5,559 nucleotides of DNA from a bacterium (GTDB taxonomy: Bacteria; UBA9089; CG2-30-40-21; SBAY01). Position numbers and translations under genes: made by a program. The stretch spans positions 1 to 5,559 of the forward strand of contig JBFLYA010000245.1 in the NCBI GenBank assembly GCA_040757115.1, written 5' to 3'. Under the pieces are notes generated by a model. It saw only the letters and a program-made list of their open reading frames with translations. It had not been told where the DNA came from and made no database searches. Below, in pieces: positions 1-5,424 of this stretch; position 1 is the stretch's first letter; every line of letters starts with the position of its first letter.

Positions 1-312
1 TTTATCTGGAGGCCAGGCATAGCGTATCCGCTCTCTCTTAGGATTATAAAGTGCTAAAAACGAATCTATCTCCTTTGCTACATCACTTACAGTTACCTTA
101 AATAATCCTCGTTTAGGTATGTTTATCCTGTAATAATCTATATCTTGCTTTGGGGCAATGTTATTACCCGTGATTACCTGACCTAATTCTATCTTCGTTG
201 CCTGATTAAAACTGTCATTCGGCTCAAAGAGATCTTGGGCAAAAGTCTTTGTGGCAAAAATACATGGGATAACTAATCCTACGAATACACTTAAAATCAA
301 ACTTTTTTTCAT
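1..312 (-). CDS. Secreted protein with PPC-like beta-sandwich domain, 5' part only
   Basis: The reading frame starts at the ATG at 312 and stays open to the window edge, giving 104 residues; the 3' end lies outside. An AGGAGG Shine-Dalgarno (323-328) sits 10 nt upstream and supports the start. Residues 1-25 form a Sec signal peptide: MKK, a hydrophobic core, and a T-F-A|Q cleavage site. The mature part opens with EPND (30-33), then an ATKIELGQ stretch, DIDYYRINIP (57-66) and SDVAKEIDSFLALYNP (76-91). This pattern matches the bacterial pre-peptidase C-terminal (PPC) fold, a small beta domain found in exported proteases and other secreted multidomain proteins. The domain usually aids secretion or binding and is not catalytic. 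The rest of the protein is unseen, so its enzymatic role, if any, is unknown. A lipoprotein is unlikely because the VIPC around Cys17 is a poor lipobox. The export call is firm; the PPC assignment is from motif memory. Confidence 0.8.
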   Translation of the reverse strand, partial: MKKSLILSVFVGLVIPCIFATKTFAQDLFEPNDSFNQATKIELGQVITGNNIAPKQDIDYYRINIPKRGLFKVTVSDVAKEIDSFLALYNPKRERIRYAWPPDK

Positions 313-531: not shown

Positions 532-743
532 GTAACTATTCACCACGAAGAGCACGAAGGGCAGGGAGATGTTACAGAACAAATCTCTTTATGCCTTCTT
601 TCAATCTTTCCACATTGAAATTTATCACTAGACCAACCTTGATATTTGCCAATTTCATATATGTTAATATTTGAGCTTCATGAATTCGATAATTCATCAA
701 ATTTCACTTCGTGCTCTCCGTGCCTTTCGTGGTGAATAGTTAC
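532..743. mobile_element. 212-bp inverted-repeat unit carrying a GxxExxY stub
   Basis: The left end (532-549) begins GTAACTATTCACCACGAA and the right end (726-743) is its exact reverse complement, giving 18-bp perfect terminal inverted repeats. Similarity continues imperfectly inward through GCACGAAGG/GCACGGAGAG-type words. The first 11 bases, GTAACTATTCA, are the same as the ends of the 1798-2149 unit, so the two belong to one family. The inside encodes only the C-terminal 41 residues of a GxxExxY protein. No target duplication is seen: the 8 bp on the left (ATTAACAA) and right (CTAATCGA) differ. The unit is therefore either old or was formed by internal deletion or recombination. No transposase is encoded, so it would be non-autonomous. 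Confidence 0.6.
572..697 (-). pseudogene. C-terminal remnant of a GxxExxY-family protein
   Basis: A 41-residue open frame runs from the ATG at 697 to the TAA at 572, with an in-frame TGA at 704-706 just upstream. The peptide includes HEAQILTYMKLANIKVGLV followed by INFNVERLKEGIKRFVL. This matches the last third of the GxxExxY family (normally about 125-130 residues), where an H-x-A-Q-L-x-x-Y-L segment precedes a V-G-L-L-I-N-F-N strand and a short R-F-x-L tail. The N-terminal part, including the GxxExxY motif, is absent; the frame runs straight into the inverted repeat. The function of the family is unknown, and its fold is thought to be nuclease-like. I see no Shine-Dalgarno, so I treat it as a relic rather than a small gene. 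Confidence 0.75.
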
Positions 744-745
744 CT

Positions 746-766
746 AATCGATAATTCACTAATTCG
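746..766. repeat. Short heptamer tract at the rpn 3' end
   Basis: AATCGAT, AATTCAC and TAATTCG follow each other in a 7-bp register between the end of the 532-743 unit and the stop codon of the Rpn gene, overlapping the last codons. The composition is similar to the tracts at 466-507 and 1775-1795. It is only three units long, so chance is possible. Confidence 0.35.
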
Positions 767-1757
767 CTAGTCTTACAACCCTATTTATTTCCTCTTCTGA
801 AAGTTCTGTTATCTCAGCAATCATCTCCAATTTAAACCCTTTTTTATACATCGATTTAGCTGTTTCTATTGCCTTCCTATATTCGCCTTGTTGTAATCCT
901 TGTTCTAATCCTTGTTGTAACCCTTGTTCTAATCCTTGTTGTAATCCTTGTTCTAATCCTTGTTGTAACCCTTGTTCTAATCCTTGTTGTAACCCTTGTT
1001 CTAATCCTTGTTGTAACCCTTGTTCTAATCCTTGTTCTAACCCTTTCTTTTCGGCATAAGAAATCGATGCCTTTTGAATATAGATGAAATCTTTCCTTTT
1101 ATGCTGTATCTCTAATTCTTTAGCACTCAGACCTGCTTGATTGGCTATCTCAAATGCCTTCTTTATCTCTTTACTCATCCCCAGTGTTTTGGGTATGTAA
1201 TTTAGCTTACCCGCATTTTTTATAAAATATATCCATTTATCCGTAATATCACTTAATTCACTTTCTTCCTTCTTGAATTTTGGCAACTCAATGAAGATTA
1301 ATTCAATATCTCCACTATATTCAACTAACTCCTCCTTCTCTATCAATCTGAAGTAACTGATGACCTTTGTCCACTCACTAAACATCTCAAAATCAGTAAT
1401 AGTGATAGCAATAATCGGGTTTAATAGATAAAATTCATCACCACATAAAAGTTGCGTAGAATATGCCTTCGCCGCATTGTAGAGAATCCTTTTTTCTAAT
1501 CCTTCATAATTTAATATCTGCATCTCAATAATTACGCCACTACCATCTGATAATATTGCCTTGACATCAACATAGGTATCTTTCATCCCTTTAAGTAACG
1601 GTATCTGATATGGGTCAACTATGGTTAAATCTTCAATAATGCTTCCATCTTTGAATTTAACCACGGAGTTTATAAAGTTTATAAGTATATCTTTTGATTG
1701 TTTACTTCCAAATACCTTTTTAAAGGCAAAGTCTGTTTTTACATCTAAAAACTGCAT
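759..1757 (-). CDS. Rpn family recombination-promoting nuclease / putative PD-(D/E)XK transposase
   Basis: The protein is 332 residues with an ATG at 1757 and a strong Shine-Dalgarno, AAGGAGGAA (1765-1773). The N-terminus has the family signature D-x-A-F-K-K-V-F-G (residues 9-17). A PD-(D/E)XK-type active site is visible as D64 in YVDVKAIL and E78-M-Q80 in GVIIEMQIL, followed by the helix KRILYNAAKAYSTQL (89-103). Rpn proteins are Mg-dependent DNA nucleases that raise recombination in E. coli and are widely labelled putative transposases. Residues 239-290 are 13 uninterrupted G-L-(E/Q)-Q tetrapeptides, extending the glycine-rich repeat often seen in this family. A helical tail follows (291-332) with KAIETAKSMYKKGFKLEMIA and ITELSEEEINRV, the usual C-terminal motif of the family. 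The frame and catalytic residues look intact. The gene is monocistronic and sits between two inverted-repeat units; one of them inserted 33 bp upstream of the start codon. No clear promoter is visible. Confidence 0.93.
   Translation of the reverse strand: MQFLDVKTDFAFKKVFGSKQSKDILINFINSVVKFKDGSIIEDLTIVDPYQIPLLKGMKDTYVDVKAILSDGSGVIIEMQILNYEGLEKRILYNAAKAYSTQLLCGDEFYLLNPIIAITITDFEMFSEWTKVISYFRLIEKEELVEYSGDIELIFIELPKFKKEESELSDITDKWIYFIKNAGKLNYIPKTLGMSKEIKKAFEIANQAGLSAKELEIQHKRKDFIYIQKASISYAEKKGLEQGLEQGLQQGLEQGLQQGLEQGLQQGLEQGLQQGLEQGLQQGLEQGLQQGEYRKAIETAKSMYKKGFKLEMIAEITELSEEEINRVVRLAN
888..1043. repeat. In-frame 12/24-bp minisatellite encoding GLEQ/GLQQ
   Basis: The tract is 156 bp, or thirteen 12-bp units, mostly alternating between an E form and a Q form so that the higher-order period is 24 bp. 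On the coding strand the units are G-L-E-Q and G-L-Q-Q; the first two units are both GLEQ, then strict alternation begins. Near-identity between units at the DNA level, including synonymous sites, points to recent expansion by slippage or unequal recombination. Gain or loss of units keeps the frame. Confidence 0.92.
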
Positions 1758-1774
1758 ATTTTTATTCCTCCTTG

Positions 1775-1795
1775 AATTCGTATTTCGTAATTTGT
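1775..1795. repeat. Heptamer tract in the rpn leader, overlapping the element target site
   Basis: AATTCGT, ATTTCGT and AATTTGT are consecutive 7-mers between the rpn Shine-Dalgarno and the inserted unit. The 8-bp target duplication (1790-1797) starts inside the last heptamer. Confidence 0.45.
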
Positions 1796-1797
1796 AG
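1790..1797. repeat. Left target-site duplication, ATTTGTAG
   Basis: ATTTGTAG lies directly against the first base of the left terminal inverted repeat. The identical 8-mer lies directly against the last base of the right one (2150-2157). Confidence 0.75.
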
Positions 1798-2149
1798 GTA
1801 ACTATTCAGCCACAGATGGATACAGATGAAACACTGATTTTATTTTTTTATCCCTGCTAATCCGCCTCGATCAGATTACTATTCGCCAACCATAACTCCT
1901 GTGTATTTTACTTTAATTGGGTATTCCAATTCTGGTGAATATTTCCAGGCTAATAATTCAATCTATTATGTTTTTTGATAAACTCTTTCCCAAAAAGCAT
2001 AACCAAAATATTGTAGACTTCAAATGCACATCCTCAGTTCTTTTTTCATATTTTAAACTCATTCTATTTCATCCGTGTTAATCCGTGTCCATCAGTGGCT
2101 GAATAATTACATTTTTATATTCTTTGTGTCTTGGTGGCTGAATAGTTAC
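1798..2149. mobile_element. 352-bp MITE-like unit with 16-bp TIRs and an 8-bp target duplication
   Basis: The left end (1798-1813) reads GTAACTATTCAGCCAC and the right end (2134-2149) is its exact reverse complement. An identical 8-bp direct repeat, ATTTGTAG, abuts both ends. A second copy of the right terminus, with one mismatch, lies inside at 2095-2110. Past the terminus the left arm continues imperfectly (about 40 bp) into this inner copy through CAC(A/G)GAT-type words, so the right end appears partly duplicated. The interior carries a decayed GxxExxY gene and nothing resembling a transposase, so movement would need help in trans. The shared 11-bp terminus with the 532-743 unit defines a small family. 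Confidence 0.75.
1879..2062 (-). pseudogene. Frameshifted GxxExxY-family pseudogene
   Basis: Reading leftward from the ATG at 2062 gives MSLKYEKRTEDVHL, matching the family's K-Y-E-x-L-T-E start. One frame over comes AFEVYNIL. After a one-base deletion comes GYAFWERVYQKT, which corresponds to the defining G-x-x-E-x-x-Y helix with the last Gly changed to Ala. Further on, in another frame, ELLAWKYSPELEYPIKVKY and TGVMVGE match the Y-P-I-x-V-x-Y-x-G-x-x-V-G-E strand region. Stops (TAG, TAA) follow at once. The normal C-terminal third is missing. Order and spacing agree with the family, so the assignment is strong although no frame is intact. It is enclosed by the inverted repeats of the 1798-2149 unit. 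Confidence 0.75.
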
Positions 2150-2157
2150 ATTTGTAG
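2150..2157. repeat. Right target-site duplication, ATTTGTAG
   Basis: Exact copy of the 8-mer at 1790-1797, abutting the outer end of the right terminal inverted repeat. Confidence 0.75.
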
Positions 2158-2514: not shown

Positions 2515-4047
2515 CTAAAGTTTTTTTGAGGTCTTCATATTATTAAATATCTGTGAAGCAGTAAGAATATCCACTGCTCGTTGAAGTTGCGTGTCTAAAA
2601 TCAGGTCATAAACAGGTTCCTTTTTTAACTCCTTTTTTCTGATTTCTATATCTATCTTTTTCTTAAGGAGCACTTCTTTTATTTTTATCCCATCTTTTTC
2701 TAAATTAGCCAGTAGTTCTTTCATATCATCTTCTGTATATGGATTATGTTCTTCAATAAATTTTTTTACATACCCTTCTTTTTCTATCTTATTAAACATC
2801 TCTGCATCTTCCTTACTTAATTCATATTCTTCGGCAGTAATATCAGGAATGATTCCTTTATCATGGATAGATTTACCTGAAGGTGTATAGTATTTAGCCG
2901 TAGTGAGGGCTATGCCGGAGTTATCTGCGAGTGAAATAACTGTTTGCACTGAGGCTTTTCCAAAACTTGGCAAACCAACGATAACTCCTCGTGGGGGAGC
3001 AACTCTTCTTTTAACAAGCCATTTTTCTGATTCTATCTCATTAATAGAAATATCCTCTTTATTCTCAAGCAATTTAGCCCATTTATCATATTCTACCTTA
3101 TTAGTGATTAAAAATTTCTCATATTGTGGGTCTTGAATAGCTCCAGCAACAATTTCTGAACCACTGGCACTCCCATGGTTAATTAAAACTACCATTGGAT
3201 AATCACCATCCAGCCCTGAATCTGTTGCCTGATAATCTTGATTCATTTGTGGAATGCGACCATTAATGGAAACAATCAATTTCTTATCGGATAAAAATTC
3301 ATCCGTCACTGCCACGGCTGAATCTAATAACCCACCCGGATTATTTCTTAAATCTAAGATTAAACTCTTCATATCCTTTTCTTTTAACTTTAAAAGGGCA
3401 TTATGGAATTCATCTGGTGTCTTTTGATTAAAATTAGTTATCCGAATATAACCCATATCTTTCTTAATCATATCATATTTAACACTTTCGATTTTGATTA
3501 TATCACGAATAATCGTAAATTTAAGCCATTCTTTTTCACCTTCCCTTTCAACGCTAATCGTAACTTCTGTTCCCTTAGGACCTCTTAATTTTCCAACCGC
3601 CTCAAATAAGGTAATATCTTTTGTTGTAACTCCATCAATCTCCATAATTTTATCACCTGCTTTAACGCCCGCCAGTGCCGCTGGTGTTTCCTCAATCGGT
3701 GAAATAACCGTTAATTGATTATCTTTAAGACCAATAACAATTCCTACTCCACCAAATTCACCTTCTGTCTCCACTTTCATCTCTTTATATGATTCTGGGG
3801 TCATAAATCGTGTATGTGGGTCATTCAAACTTTTTAATAAGCCGCTAATGGCTCCATAGATTAAATCCTTTGACTTAACTTTATCAATATCCACATATTG
3901 AGTCTGGACAATAGAGAGTGCCTGGGTAAAAAGCCGTATGTCATCATACATTTGTTGATTTTTATCGGATGATGACCTGCTATCTCCGACTATTAGTCCT
4001 AAAAATGTTAGCCCAACAATTAACCACAATATTTTCTTACGAAACAT
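2515..4047 (-). CDS. ctpA: S41 family C-terminal processing peptidase (CtpA-type, PDZ domain)
   Basis: The protein is 510 residues with an ATG at 4047 and an AAGGAGGAT Shine-Dalgarno (4051-4059) 5 nt away. Residues 6-21 form a hydrophobic signal or anchor segment, so the enzyme acts outside the cytoplasmic membrane. The family N-terminal region follows (AISGLLKSLNDPHTRFMTP, 66-84). A PDZ domain spans about 96-182 (GEFGGVGIVIG, then SPIEETPAALAGVKAGDKI), and the tail-specific protease core comes after it (LILDLRNNPGGLL, 229-241). Ser295 in GSASGSEIVAGAIQD is the expected nucleophile; Lys364 in SFGKASVQ and Gln368 complete the usual Ser-Lys-Gln site. Ser and Lys are 69 residues apart instead of about 25, because roughly 45 lysine/glutamate-rich residues (307-351) are inserted. 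The usual FGKG is FGKA here. GIALTTAKYYTPSGKSI (378-394) and the terminal D-x-Q-L-Q-R-A helix are standard. Such proteases trim C-termini of envelope proteins. The gene has its own strong promoter. Confidence 0.93.
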   Translation of the reverse strand: MFRKKILWLIVGLTFLGLIVGDSRSSSDKNQQMYDDIRLFTQALSIVQTQYVDIDKVKSKDLIYGAISGLLKSLNDPHTRFMTPESYKEMKVETEGEFGGVGIVIGLKDNQLTVISPIEETPAALAGVKAGDKIMEIDGVTTKDITLFEAVGKLRGPKGTEVTISVEREGEKEWLKFTIIRDIIKIESVKYDMIKKDMGYIRITNFNQKTPDEFHNALLKLKEKDMKSLILDLRNNPGGLLDSAVAVTDEFLSDKKLIVSINGRIPQMNQDYQATDSGLDGDYPMVVLINHGSASGSEIVAGAIQDPQYEKFLITNKVEYDKWAKLLENKEDISINEIESEKWLVKRRVAPPRGVIVGLPSFGKASVQTVISLADNSGIALTTAKYYTPSGKSIHDKGIIPDITAEEYELSKEDAEMFNKIEKEGYVKKFIEEHNPYTEDDMKELLANLEKDGIKIKEVLLKKKIDIEIRKKELKKEPVYDLILDTQLQRAVDILTASQIFNNMKTSKKL

Positions 4048-4157: not shown

Positions 4158-5372
4158 TTAATACCCCATTCTAAATGGTTCGACCCACACCTCATCTCCT
4201 TCTCTAATTTCATTTTGCTCTGGTAAAATCATCATCAAGCAATTAGCCACTAACATGGAAGAAAGTATCCCAGAACCTTGAGGACCGGTTGTGGTCACTT
4301 CCCAGCCATCTTTTCCTTGCGAAAGTATCCCCCTTAGAAATTCTGTTCGATTATCCTTTTTAGTCCTTTGAAATTTAGCCTTAGCTTTAAACTGGATAAT
4401 TTTATCATAATCTTTATAACCAGCCATTTTCAAAAGGGCACATCGGACAAATTTAATAAAACTCACCATTACCGAAACAGGATTACCCGGCAAACCAAAG
4501 AAGTAACAATTACCAATCTTGCCAAATGAAACAGGTTTTCCTGGTTTTACATTCACCTGCCAGAATTCCAGATTACCCAATTCATTTACTACTTCTTTTA
4601 CTAAATCATACTGGCCTACCGAAACACCACCAGAGGTAATGATAGCATCTGCTTTATTACTTGCCTGGGCGAATTTCTTCTTTAAAACATCTTTATCATC
4701 TCTGATAATGCTTAGATCAATTATTTCTACCCCCAATTGTGTTAGTAATCCCATTAAAGTGTATCGATTGCTATCGTATTTTTTGCCTGATGGTCGTTTT
4801 TCTCCAGGCAGAAGGAGTTCATCGCCGGTGGAAGCAATGGCAACCGTTAATTTTCTAAAGGCATTTATAGTTGTATATCCCATTGCGGCTAACATCCCCA
4901 TTTCTTGTGGTTTAATCCAGGTACCTTTGTCTAATATCAGGTTACCCTGTTTAATATCTTCACCTTGAAATCGGATATTAGCCCATTTTTTAGCGGCTTT
5001 TGGGGGAATAGTTACCCACTCACCTTCCTGACCTGTCACTTCTTGAATAACGACTGTATCGGCTCCTTCAGGGAGGGTAGCACCTGTCATAATCCTAACT
5101 GCTTGTCCCTCTTCAATCTTTTTATCAAAATACCCTCCTGCGGGTAACTCACCAATTACCTTTAATCTTGAGGGGGCTATTTCACTAATATCCTCGTATT
5201 GAATGGCATAACCATCCATTGCTGAATCATTATGAGATGGAATATCAAAAGGAGCGATTATATCTACGGCAAGAATTCGATTTAATGATGCGACAATCTT
5301 AATTTCATCAGTTTCTTTAACCGTCACAACAGTTTCCAGTATTTTTGTTTTTGCCTCTTCAAATGAAATCAA
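4158..5372 (-). CDS. moeA: Molybdopterin molybdenumtransferase MoeA
   Basis: MoeA inserts molybdate into adenylylated molybdopterin in the last step of molybdenum cofactor synthesis, in the cytoplasm. I choose the TTG at 5372 (404 residues, starting ISFEEAKTKI as MoeA proteins usually do). AAAGGA lies 9-10 nt upstream, and the promoter -10 box covers the alternative TTG at 5396. Numbering from the 5372 start: SAMDGYAI (50-57) is the domain I/III signature. GELPAGG (74-80) and RIMTGATLPEGAD (93-105) form the next conserved blocks. STGDELLLPG (181-190), the RDD near 225, ITSGGVSVGQYD (245-256), VKPGKPVSFG (275-284) and FGLPGNPVSVMVSF (292-305) make up the MoCF-biosynthesis domain. The acidic residues corresponding to E. 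coli Glu188, Asp228 and Asp259 are present. Domain IV (about 327-400) ends the protein. Length is normal. No other cofactor gene is in view. Confidence 0.95.
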   Translation of the reverse strand: MISFEEAKTKILETVVTVKETDEIKIVASLNRILAVDIIAPFDIPSHNDSAMDGYAIQYEDISEIAPSRLKVIGELPAGGYFDKKIEEGQAVRIMTGATLPEGADTVVIQEVTGQEGEWVTIPPKAAKKWANIRFQGEDIKQGNLILDKGTWIKPQEMGMLAAMGYTTINAFRKLTVAIASTGDELLLPGEKRPSGKKYDSNRYTLMGLLTQLGVEIIDLSIIRDDKDVLKKKFAQASNKADAIITSGGVSVGQYDLVKEVVNELGNLEFWQVNVKPGKPVSFGKIGNCYFFGLPGNPVSVMVSFIKFVRCALLKMAGYKDYDKIIQFKAKAKFQRTKKDNRTEFLRGILSQGKDGWEVTTTGPQGSGILSSMLVANCLMMILPEQNEIREGDEVWVEPFRMGY

Positions 5373-5395
5373 TTTTAAATATCCTTTTGCAGGCA

Positions 5396-5424
5396 ATTAT
5401 ATCAAAAACTTGAATCTATGTCAA
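5396..5424 (-). promoter_or_regulatory. Consensus sigma-70 promoter of moeA
   Basis: On the minus strand TTGACA (5419-5424), a 17-nt spacer, then TATAAT (5396-5401), a 12 of 12 match. The start of transcription should fall near 5389, giving a very short leader of about 17 nt that still contains the AAAGGA Shine-Dalgarno (5382-5387) for the TTG at 5372. Confidence 0.9.

Follow-up and report, generated by a model that had tools for sequence, protein, structure and literature searches.

GxxExxY gene relics, IS66-type tips and inverted iteron arms at a locus of an uncultured bacterium

Layout of the locus and its two inverted-repeat units

The window, which is the whole stretch of 5,559 nucleotides analysed here, is contig C245 of a 4.3-Mb genome from an uncultured bacterium (labelled G000; the genome of a sister species is labelled G001). 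An Rpn-type PD-(D/E)XK gene, an S41 protease gene and a MoeA gene follow a partial ORF (Table 1), and searches of the window against Rfam and for tRNA genes gave no match. The S41 protease has its nearest named relative, at 76% identity, in a metagenome assembly that bears the label Nitrospira sp. Bin_21_1. Within the Rpn-type gene, a 12-bp tandem repeat (QGLEQGLQ) runs in frame at about 885–1045; related copies of the gene, at 68–92%, are present in G001. A dispersed repeat at 2178–2488 is present in about 20–30 copies in the sister species (84–96% identity). CGCAAAGRR iterons form an arm-like hairpin within it (about 2347–2454); a tblastn search of this repeat for a GxxExxY relic found none. 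GxxExxY proteins are widespread and often multicopy, and have no assigned role. The Rpn gene has one inverted-repeat unit on each side, and, as the initial annotation had noticed, both units share the terminus GTAACTATTCA and carry GxxExxY relics in the same orientation.

Table 1 Features of the window.
Feature	Position	Strand	Details
Partial ORF	1–312	-	No Pfam match
Unit 1, GTAACTATTCA-tipped inverted-repeat unit	532–743	.	Arms 532–568 and 707–743
Relic of GxGL-type GxxExxY gene in unit 1	581–688	-	PF13366 profile positions 83–117
PD-(D/E)XK Rpn-type gene	759–1757	-	PF12784, TIGR01784
Left copy of unit 2 target duplication	1790–1797	.	8 bp, ATTTGTAG
Unit 2, GTAACTATTCA-tipped unit	1798–2149	.	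Tips 1798–1808 and 2139–2149
Decayed, frame-shifted relic of GxGF-type GxxExxY gene in unit 2	1870–2007	-	Residues ~17–62
Right copy of unit 2 target duplication	2150–2157	.	8 bp, ATTTGTAG
S41 protease gene	2515–4047	-	
MoeA gene	4158–5396	-	

The arms of unit 1 are 84% complementary and are made of CACGAAGRR iterons (AG class). Its relic covers the final ~35 residues encoded by such a gene, in agreement with the C-terminal part originally assigned to it, and the 42-aa ORF scores above the curated cut-offs of both family profiles (TIGR04256: E 2e-10, 40.9 bits, cut-off 35; PF13366: E 7e-10, 39.7 bits, cut-off 22). The best tblastn score was 60.5 bits, while none of 150 dinucleotide shuffles exceeded 25.4, and the relic is nearest to a GxGL-type protein with CACGAAG arms. 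No target duplication was found at the window copy. Copies at 97–99% occur elsewhere in G001, where a copy of this type (L258:372–778) has a perfect 8-bp duplication, ATTGCCGA.

Unit 2 is bounded by a 16-nt inverted repeat of 100% complementarity (1798–1813/2134–2149) with a longer inner arm pair at 1798–1830/2078–2110, its arms being CACGGATTAA/CACAGATGGA iterons of the AT class (CACGGAT). The empty site of this insertion is intact in the sister species (G001, contig C38), in which ATTTGTAG is single. Only a tblastn search that used 123 family members as queries detected the relic, at 38.1 bits (0/150 shuffles reached this score, the highest giving 25.0); the genome-wide profile search missed it. 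While the presence of a GxxExxY relic in this unit is upheld, its description as the N-terminal two-thirds of the protein was somewhat generous, the remainder beyond the matched residues being frame-shifted and read by eye. The relic is nearest to GxGF-type proteins. The two relics thus come from separate GxxExxY subfamilies, their inner arms differ as well, and the proposal that they are two differently deleted copies of one element has to be abandoned.

Inverted iteron arms around GxxExxY genes

The inner arms, which lie between the tips and the gene, are inverted arrays of 8–10-nt iterons and are found beyond the tipped units as well. Arms were scored as present at a local complementarity score of at least 14 within 200 bp on both sides. 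With this threshold, 13 of the 19 full-length GxxExxY genes of G000 and 27/35 of those of its relatives have arms, compared with 8/187 (G000) and 0/17 control ORFs of this lineage; the 8 positive G000 controls include an S23 gene and several ORFs adjoining tipped units. A broad sample covered 61 genomes (among them Gemmatirosa, Bacteroides, Bernardetia and Sphingomonas) and 72 GxxExxY genes, of which 46 have arms, as against 1 of 144 control ORFs from the same loci (Fisher p 4e-27); the other 26 genes show no arms at the chosen score. The expectation that inverted repeats bound GxxExxY genes, whether intact or not, more often than control genes is thus supported by a wide margin. A scan of viral contigs yielded one degenerate GxxExxY copy, also with arms (CACGAAAA).

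Arm sequences are closely matched within a unit (median arm match score of 20) and not between units (median of 5). Iteron type is closely related to the type of protein: AG-ending iterons (CNCAGAG, CACGAAG, CACAAAG) accompany GxGL-type proteins in 40 of 41 scored cases, and AT-ending iterons (CGCAGATT, CACGGAT, ACAGGAT) accompany GxGF-type proteins in 24 of 25. Only 4 changes of iteron class are needed on a tree of 87 proteins, and one iteron family is common to distant proteins of different hosts (e.g. L318 from Sphingomonas, L341 and L343). This tracking of protein clade by iteron type indicates that a gene moves together with its arms and that the arms are under constraint. As independent switches are few (3 pairs only in an independent-pairs test of residue against iteron class, too few to reach significance), the association fits co-inheritance and coevolution of arms and protein equally.

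Arms also occur at 21 of 26 S23 genes (L190–L218), where they consist of strict 7-nt tandem repeats that differ in sequence from locus to locus. One S23 unit, with TCGGGAC arms (L194, about 1150–1447), ends an apparent CRISPR array (repeat GTAGGAAAATAAGACCTGATGAATAAGGGATTGCGAC).

The residues E..D..ExK and QxxxY, the signature of RecB/Cas4-type PD-(D/E)XK nucleases, are invariant in 27 full-length GxxExxY proteins; the window relics are not intact. Matches of Cas4 profiles to GxxExxY are weak, and searches by sequence or profile for relatives in the PDB found none. In four GxxExxY genes of G000 (C242:5121, C144:2645, C234:1808 and C56:5588), truncation at profile position 15 is accompanied by a new N-terminus common to all four, LPVTN(H/Y)QLPESNSVRYLFNTT, indicating a fused or recombined subfamily. 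Given the predicted nuclease core and the arms that accompany it, GxxExxY may bind or cut its own arms, single-stranded or as a cruciform, to maintain or spread the inner unit; we hold this view tentatively, with somewhat less than even confidence. The arms themselves provide this hypothesis of a nuclease acting on them, and would serve as ready-made test substrates.

Two other functions of the arms are each considered unlikely. The first is that they act as RNA, a long stem in the transcript being cut or protected in the manner of the S23 intervening sequences in 23S rRNA. In favour of this reading, the S23 (23S_rRNA_IVP) genes share the two-armed architecture and are known from rRNA intervening sequences (Coxiella IVS, PMC4990558). 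However, arm mismatches are evenly divided between sense-type (75) and antisense-type (74; p = 1), and this lack of a sense-strand G-U bias makes a DNA-level role more likely than an RNA hairpin. The iteron periodicity and the clade-specific core also seem more like repeated protein-binding sites. The second, to which we give a similarly low probability, is that GxxExxY is a defence or toxin-like cargo whose arms are unconnected with mobility and serve solely for its regulation or insulation. Such a function would suit a Cas4-like nuclease core found in integron-like cassettes and mobile carriers, where defence genes often occur, but no defence-system family matched at a convincing score, no partner gene was found, and the arms are conserved over deep divergence.

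Outer tips, cargo and carriers

The tip GTAACTATTCA is present in 391 copies in G000 (200 forward, 191 reverse), compared with 7 (1 and 6) for the reversed pattern. Units were counted on a sequence base of about 460 kb plus gene neighbourhoods; in the 460 kb, the pattern GTAACYRTTCA delimited 48 distinct tip-to-tip units, and for 15 of these, unit 2 among them, the insertion is flanked by a perfect direct repeat of 8 bp. A second search for empty sites gave no further clean case. The terminal inverted repeats of the units begin with GTAA (GTAACTATTCA / GTAACCGTTCA) and resemble the ends of the sole near-complete IS66 transposase copy (PF03050) of G000. This copy (L069, 893–2455) lies between GTAACCGTTCAGGTA ends spaced 1.56 kb, with 15 nt identical at both ends; two stops interrupt it, and no target duplication is visible. 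No intact IS66 partner was found in G000 or G001, the latter being without a good copy; repeats are often lost in assemblies of this kind. The tipped units contain no transposase, and tip-to-tip spans of up to 4.5 kb hold ordinary host genes only, with no other transposase candidate.

The tips are close to the published ends of ISDge4, a member of the ISBst12 group of the IS66 family (GTAACTGCTCAGCA / GTGACTACTCAGCA, with an 8-bp duplication; PMC12898284), and the inverted repeat of IS66 begins with GTAAGCG and is likewise associated with 8-bp duplications (PMC11946415). The outer tips thus behave as IS66/ISBst12-type transposon ends, and the combination of tips, 8-bp duplications and published ends suggests that the units are IS66-mobilised MITE-like cassettes. 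On the evidence of the duplications and the empty site, spread within this phylum has likely proceeded mainly by these ends, and the link to them would account for the spread of hundreds of copies here.

Among 31 tipped units chosen blind to GxxExxY, 11 contain a GxxExxY piece and 2 an S23 piece, all above shuffle level, while the remainder have the same kinds of arms and no recognisable gene. Full-length GxxExxY genes lie inside tipped units on contigs C97 and C129 of G000, and a tipped unit of G001 (L146, 888–1450) surrounds an intact GxxExxY gene and has a perfect 8-bp duplication, AAATGGGA. GxxExxY is a regular cargo in this phylum, as initially suggested, and probably not the transposase of the tips. 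The stronger form of that suggestion, in which GxxExxY would itself transpose the GTAACTATTCA-tipped elements, could draw on its being the commonest recognisable cargo of unselected units and on the intact nuclease active site of the intact copies in tipped units. It is nevertheless very unlikely, since the same tips bound the IS66-family transposase, units with S23 relics and units without a recognisable gene, since tips and duplications match the published ISBst12/IS66 ends, and since GxxExxY units outside this phylum lack the GTAACTATTCA tips and show no duplication.

Nor do the data support a conserved outer terminus plus target duplications as a general feature of GxxExxY, as the initial annotation had envisaged: no duplication stands out in units without IS66 tips (6, compared with a mean of 2.2 and a maximum of 6 in 200 permutations). 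Duplications at arm-only units were not above permutations after L146 had been recognised as IS66-tipped. These counts give no sign of independent movement of the inner unit. That the module can be separated from its carrier is seen in the C-terminal relic with CACGAAG arms, which is found inside IS66 tips (unit 1 and its copies) and also untipped, between attC-like sequences (TAACG...GTTAGA, identified by eye) in both G001 and G000. Two orthologous sites differ between the species. A full armed GxxExxY gene of G001 (L147) corresponds in G000 to the two arms alone, forming a hairpin (L045, C5:22306–22557), and an armed gene of G001 (L150) corresponds to an uninterrupted site with an imperfect direct repeat on contig C56 of G000.

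Arrays of attC-like sequences (about 100 bp, 75–94% identity) were observed on G000 contigs C30, C116, C118, C130, C39 and C205 and in L142, L143 and L145, and apparently form a large integron, of which some armed GxxExxY units seem to be cassettes.

We consider it likely that the structure is nested, with an armed GxxExxY unit inside IS66-type ends. The inner layer would consist of a gene for a RecB/Cas4-like PD-(D/E)XK nuclease and its two inverted iteron arms, inherited together across bacteria. In this phylum, such a unit would have acquired ISBst12-type IS66 ends (GTAACTATTCA / GTAACCGTTCA) as an outer layer, and an IS66 transposase, the presumed mover, would transpose the tipped unit in trans, duplicating 8 bp of the target. 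Deletions within the units would then have reduced most copies to short MITE-like units, the window presenting two such relics from two GxxExxY subfamilies. By acting on its own arms, the nuclease may serve to excise the inner unit, to copy it or to spread it, much like the role proposed for RAYT proteins on REPs. It is hardly credible that the arms are nothing but common repeats of the host, such as MITE ends or simple repeats of the STRR kind, in which small genes landed by chance: these genomes are repeat-rich and the few armed control genes of G000 adjoin repeats too, but controls in the broad sample almost never have arms, iteron type tracks protein clade across phyla, and the period is specific to the gene family (8–10 nt for GxxExxY, 7 nt for S23).

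Significance and comparison with known systems

The clade-specific arms, inherited with the gene across phyla, offer a first testable lead to the role of GxxExxY, and the 7-nt-period architecture of S23 suggests that two unexplained multicopy families follow one principle. The arms of both are a possible source of heptamer and nonamer repeats in bacterial genomes. More tentatively still than for the proposed action of GxxExxY on its arms, we suggest that GxxExxY and S23 could define a widespread kind of two-armed element, in which a small protein acts on coevolving inverted iteron arrays. Such elements would be a nuclease-based counterpart of REP-RAYT that rides IS66 ends, integron cassettes and other carriers, and their deletion products would account for many short palindromic repeats. 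No description of inverted iteron arms of GxxExxY was found in the searchable open literature, with little coverage of subscription journals, and priority is uncertain.

The genes in the units are those of the known GxxExxY family (TIGR04256 / PF13366 PDDEXK_3). In their outer layer, the units agree with the MITEs and mobile insertion cassettes of IS66/ISBst12 (ISDge4) in having GTAAC.NTTCAG-type ends and an 8-bp duplication (PMC12898284, PMC11946415), and with IS66-derived MITEs in being short, internally deleted copies, which would likewise be moved in trans. They differ from the latter in their interior, which is a GxxExxY or S23 unit with its own iteron arms and not a deleted IS66.

S23 elements, or 23S rRNA intervening sequences (PF05635), likewise have inverted arms of short tandem repeats on either side of a small gene, and their relics occur in the same tipped units as GxxExxY. 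However, the S23 protein is an unrelated 4-helix bundle, its repeats have a 7-nt period, and it is known from rRNA genes, whereas the units described here are intergenic and the window has no Rfam match.

In the REP/REPIN-RAYT systems (REPtrons), too, short inverted repeats tied to the clade of the gene enclose a small gene of nuclease type. REPs are also dispersed as hairpins; here, one clear hairpin of arms alone was seen (L045, at the orthologous site). RAYTs are HUH proteins related to IS200/IS605 (PMC3116915, PMC6006769), while GxxExxY is a PD-(D/E)XK protein, so that the HUH (Y1) RAYT protein that defines REPtrons is absent; moreover, the arms described here are arrays of 8–10-nt iterons private to each unit, and excision was not seen. 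IS66-type MITEs are of an already known kind, and the armed GxxExxY unit resembles REP-RAYT in its layout.
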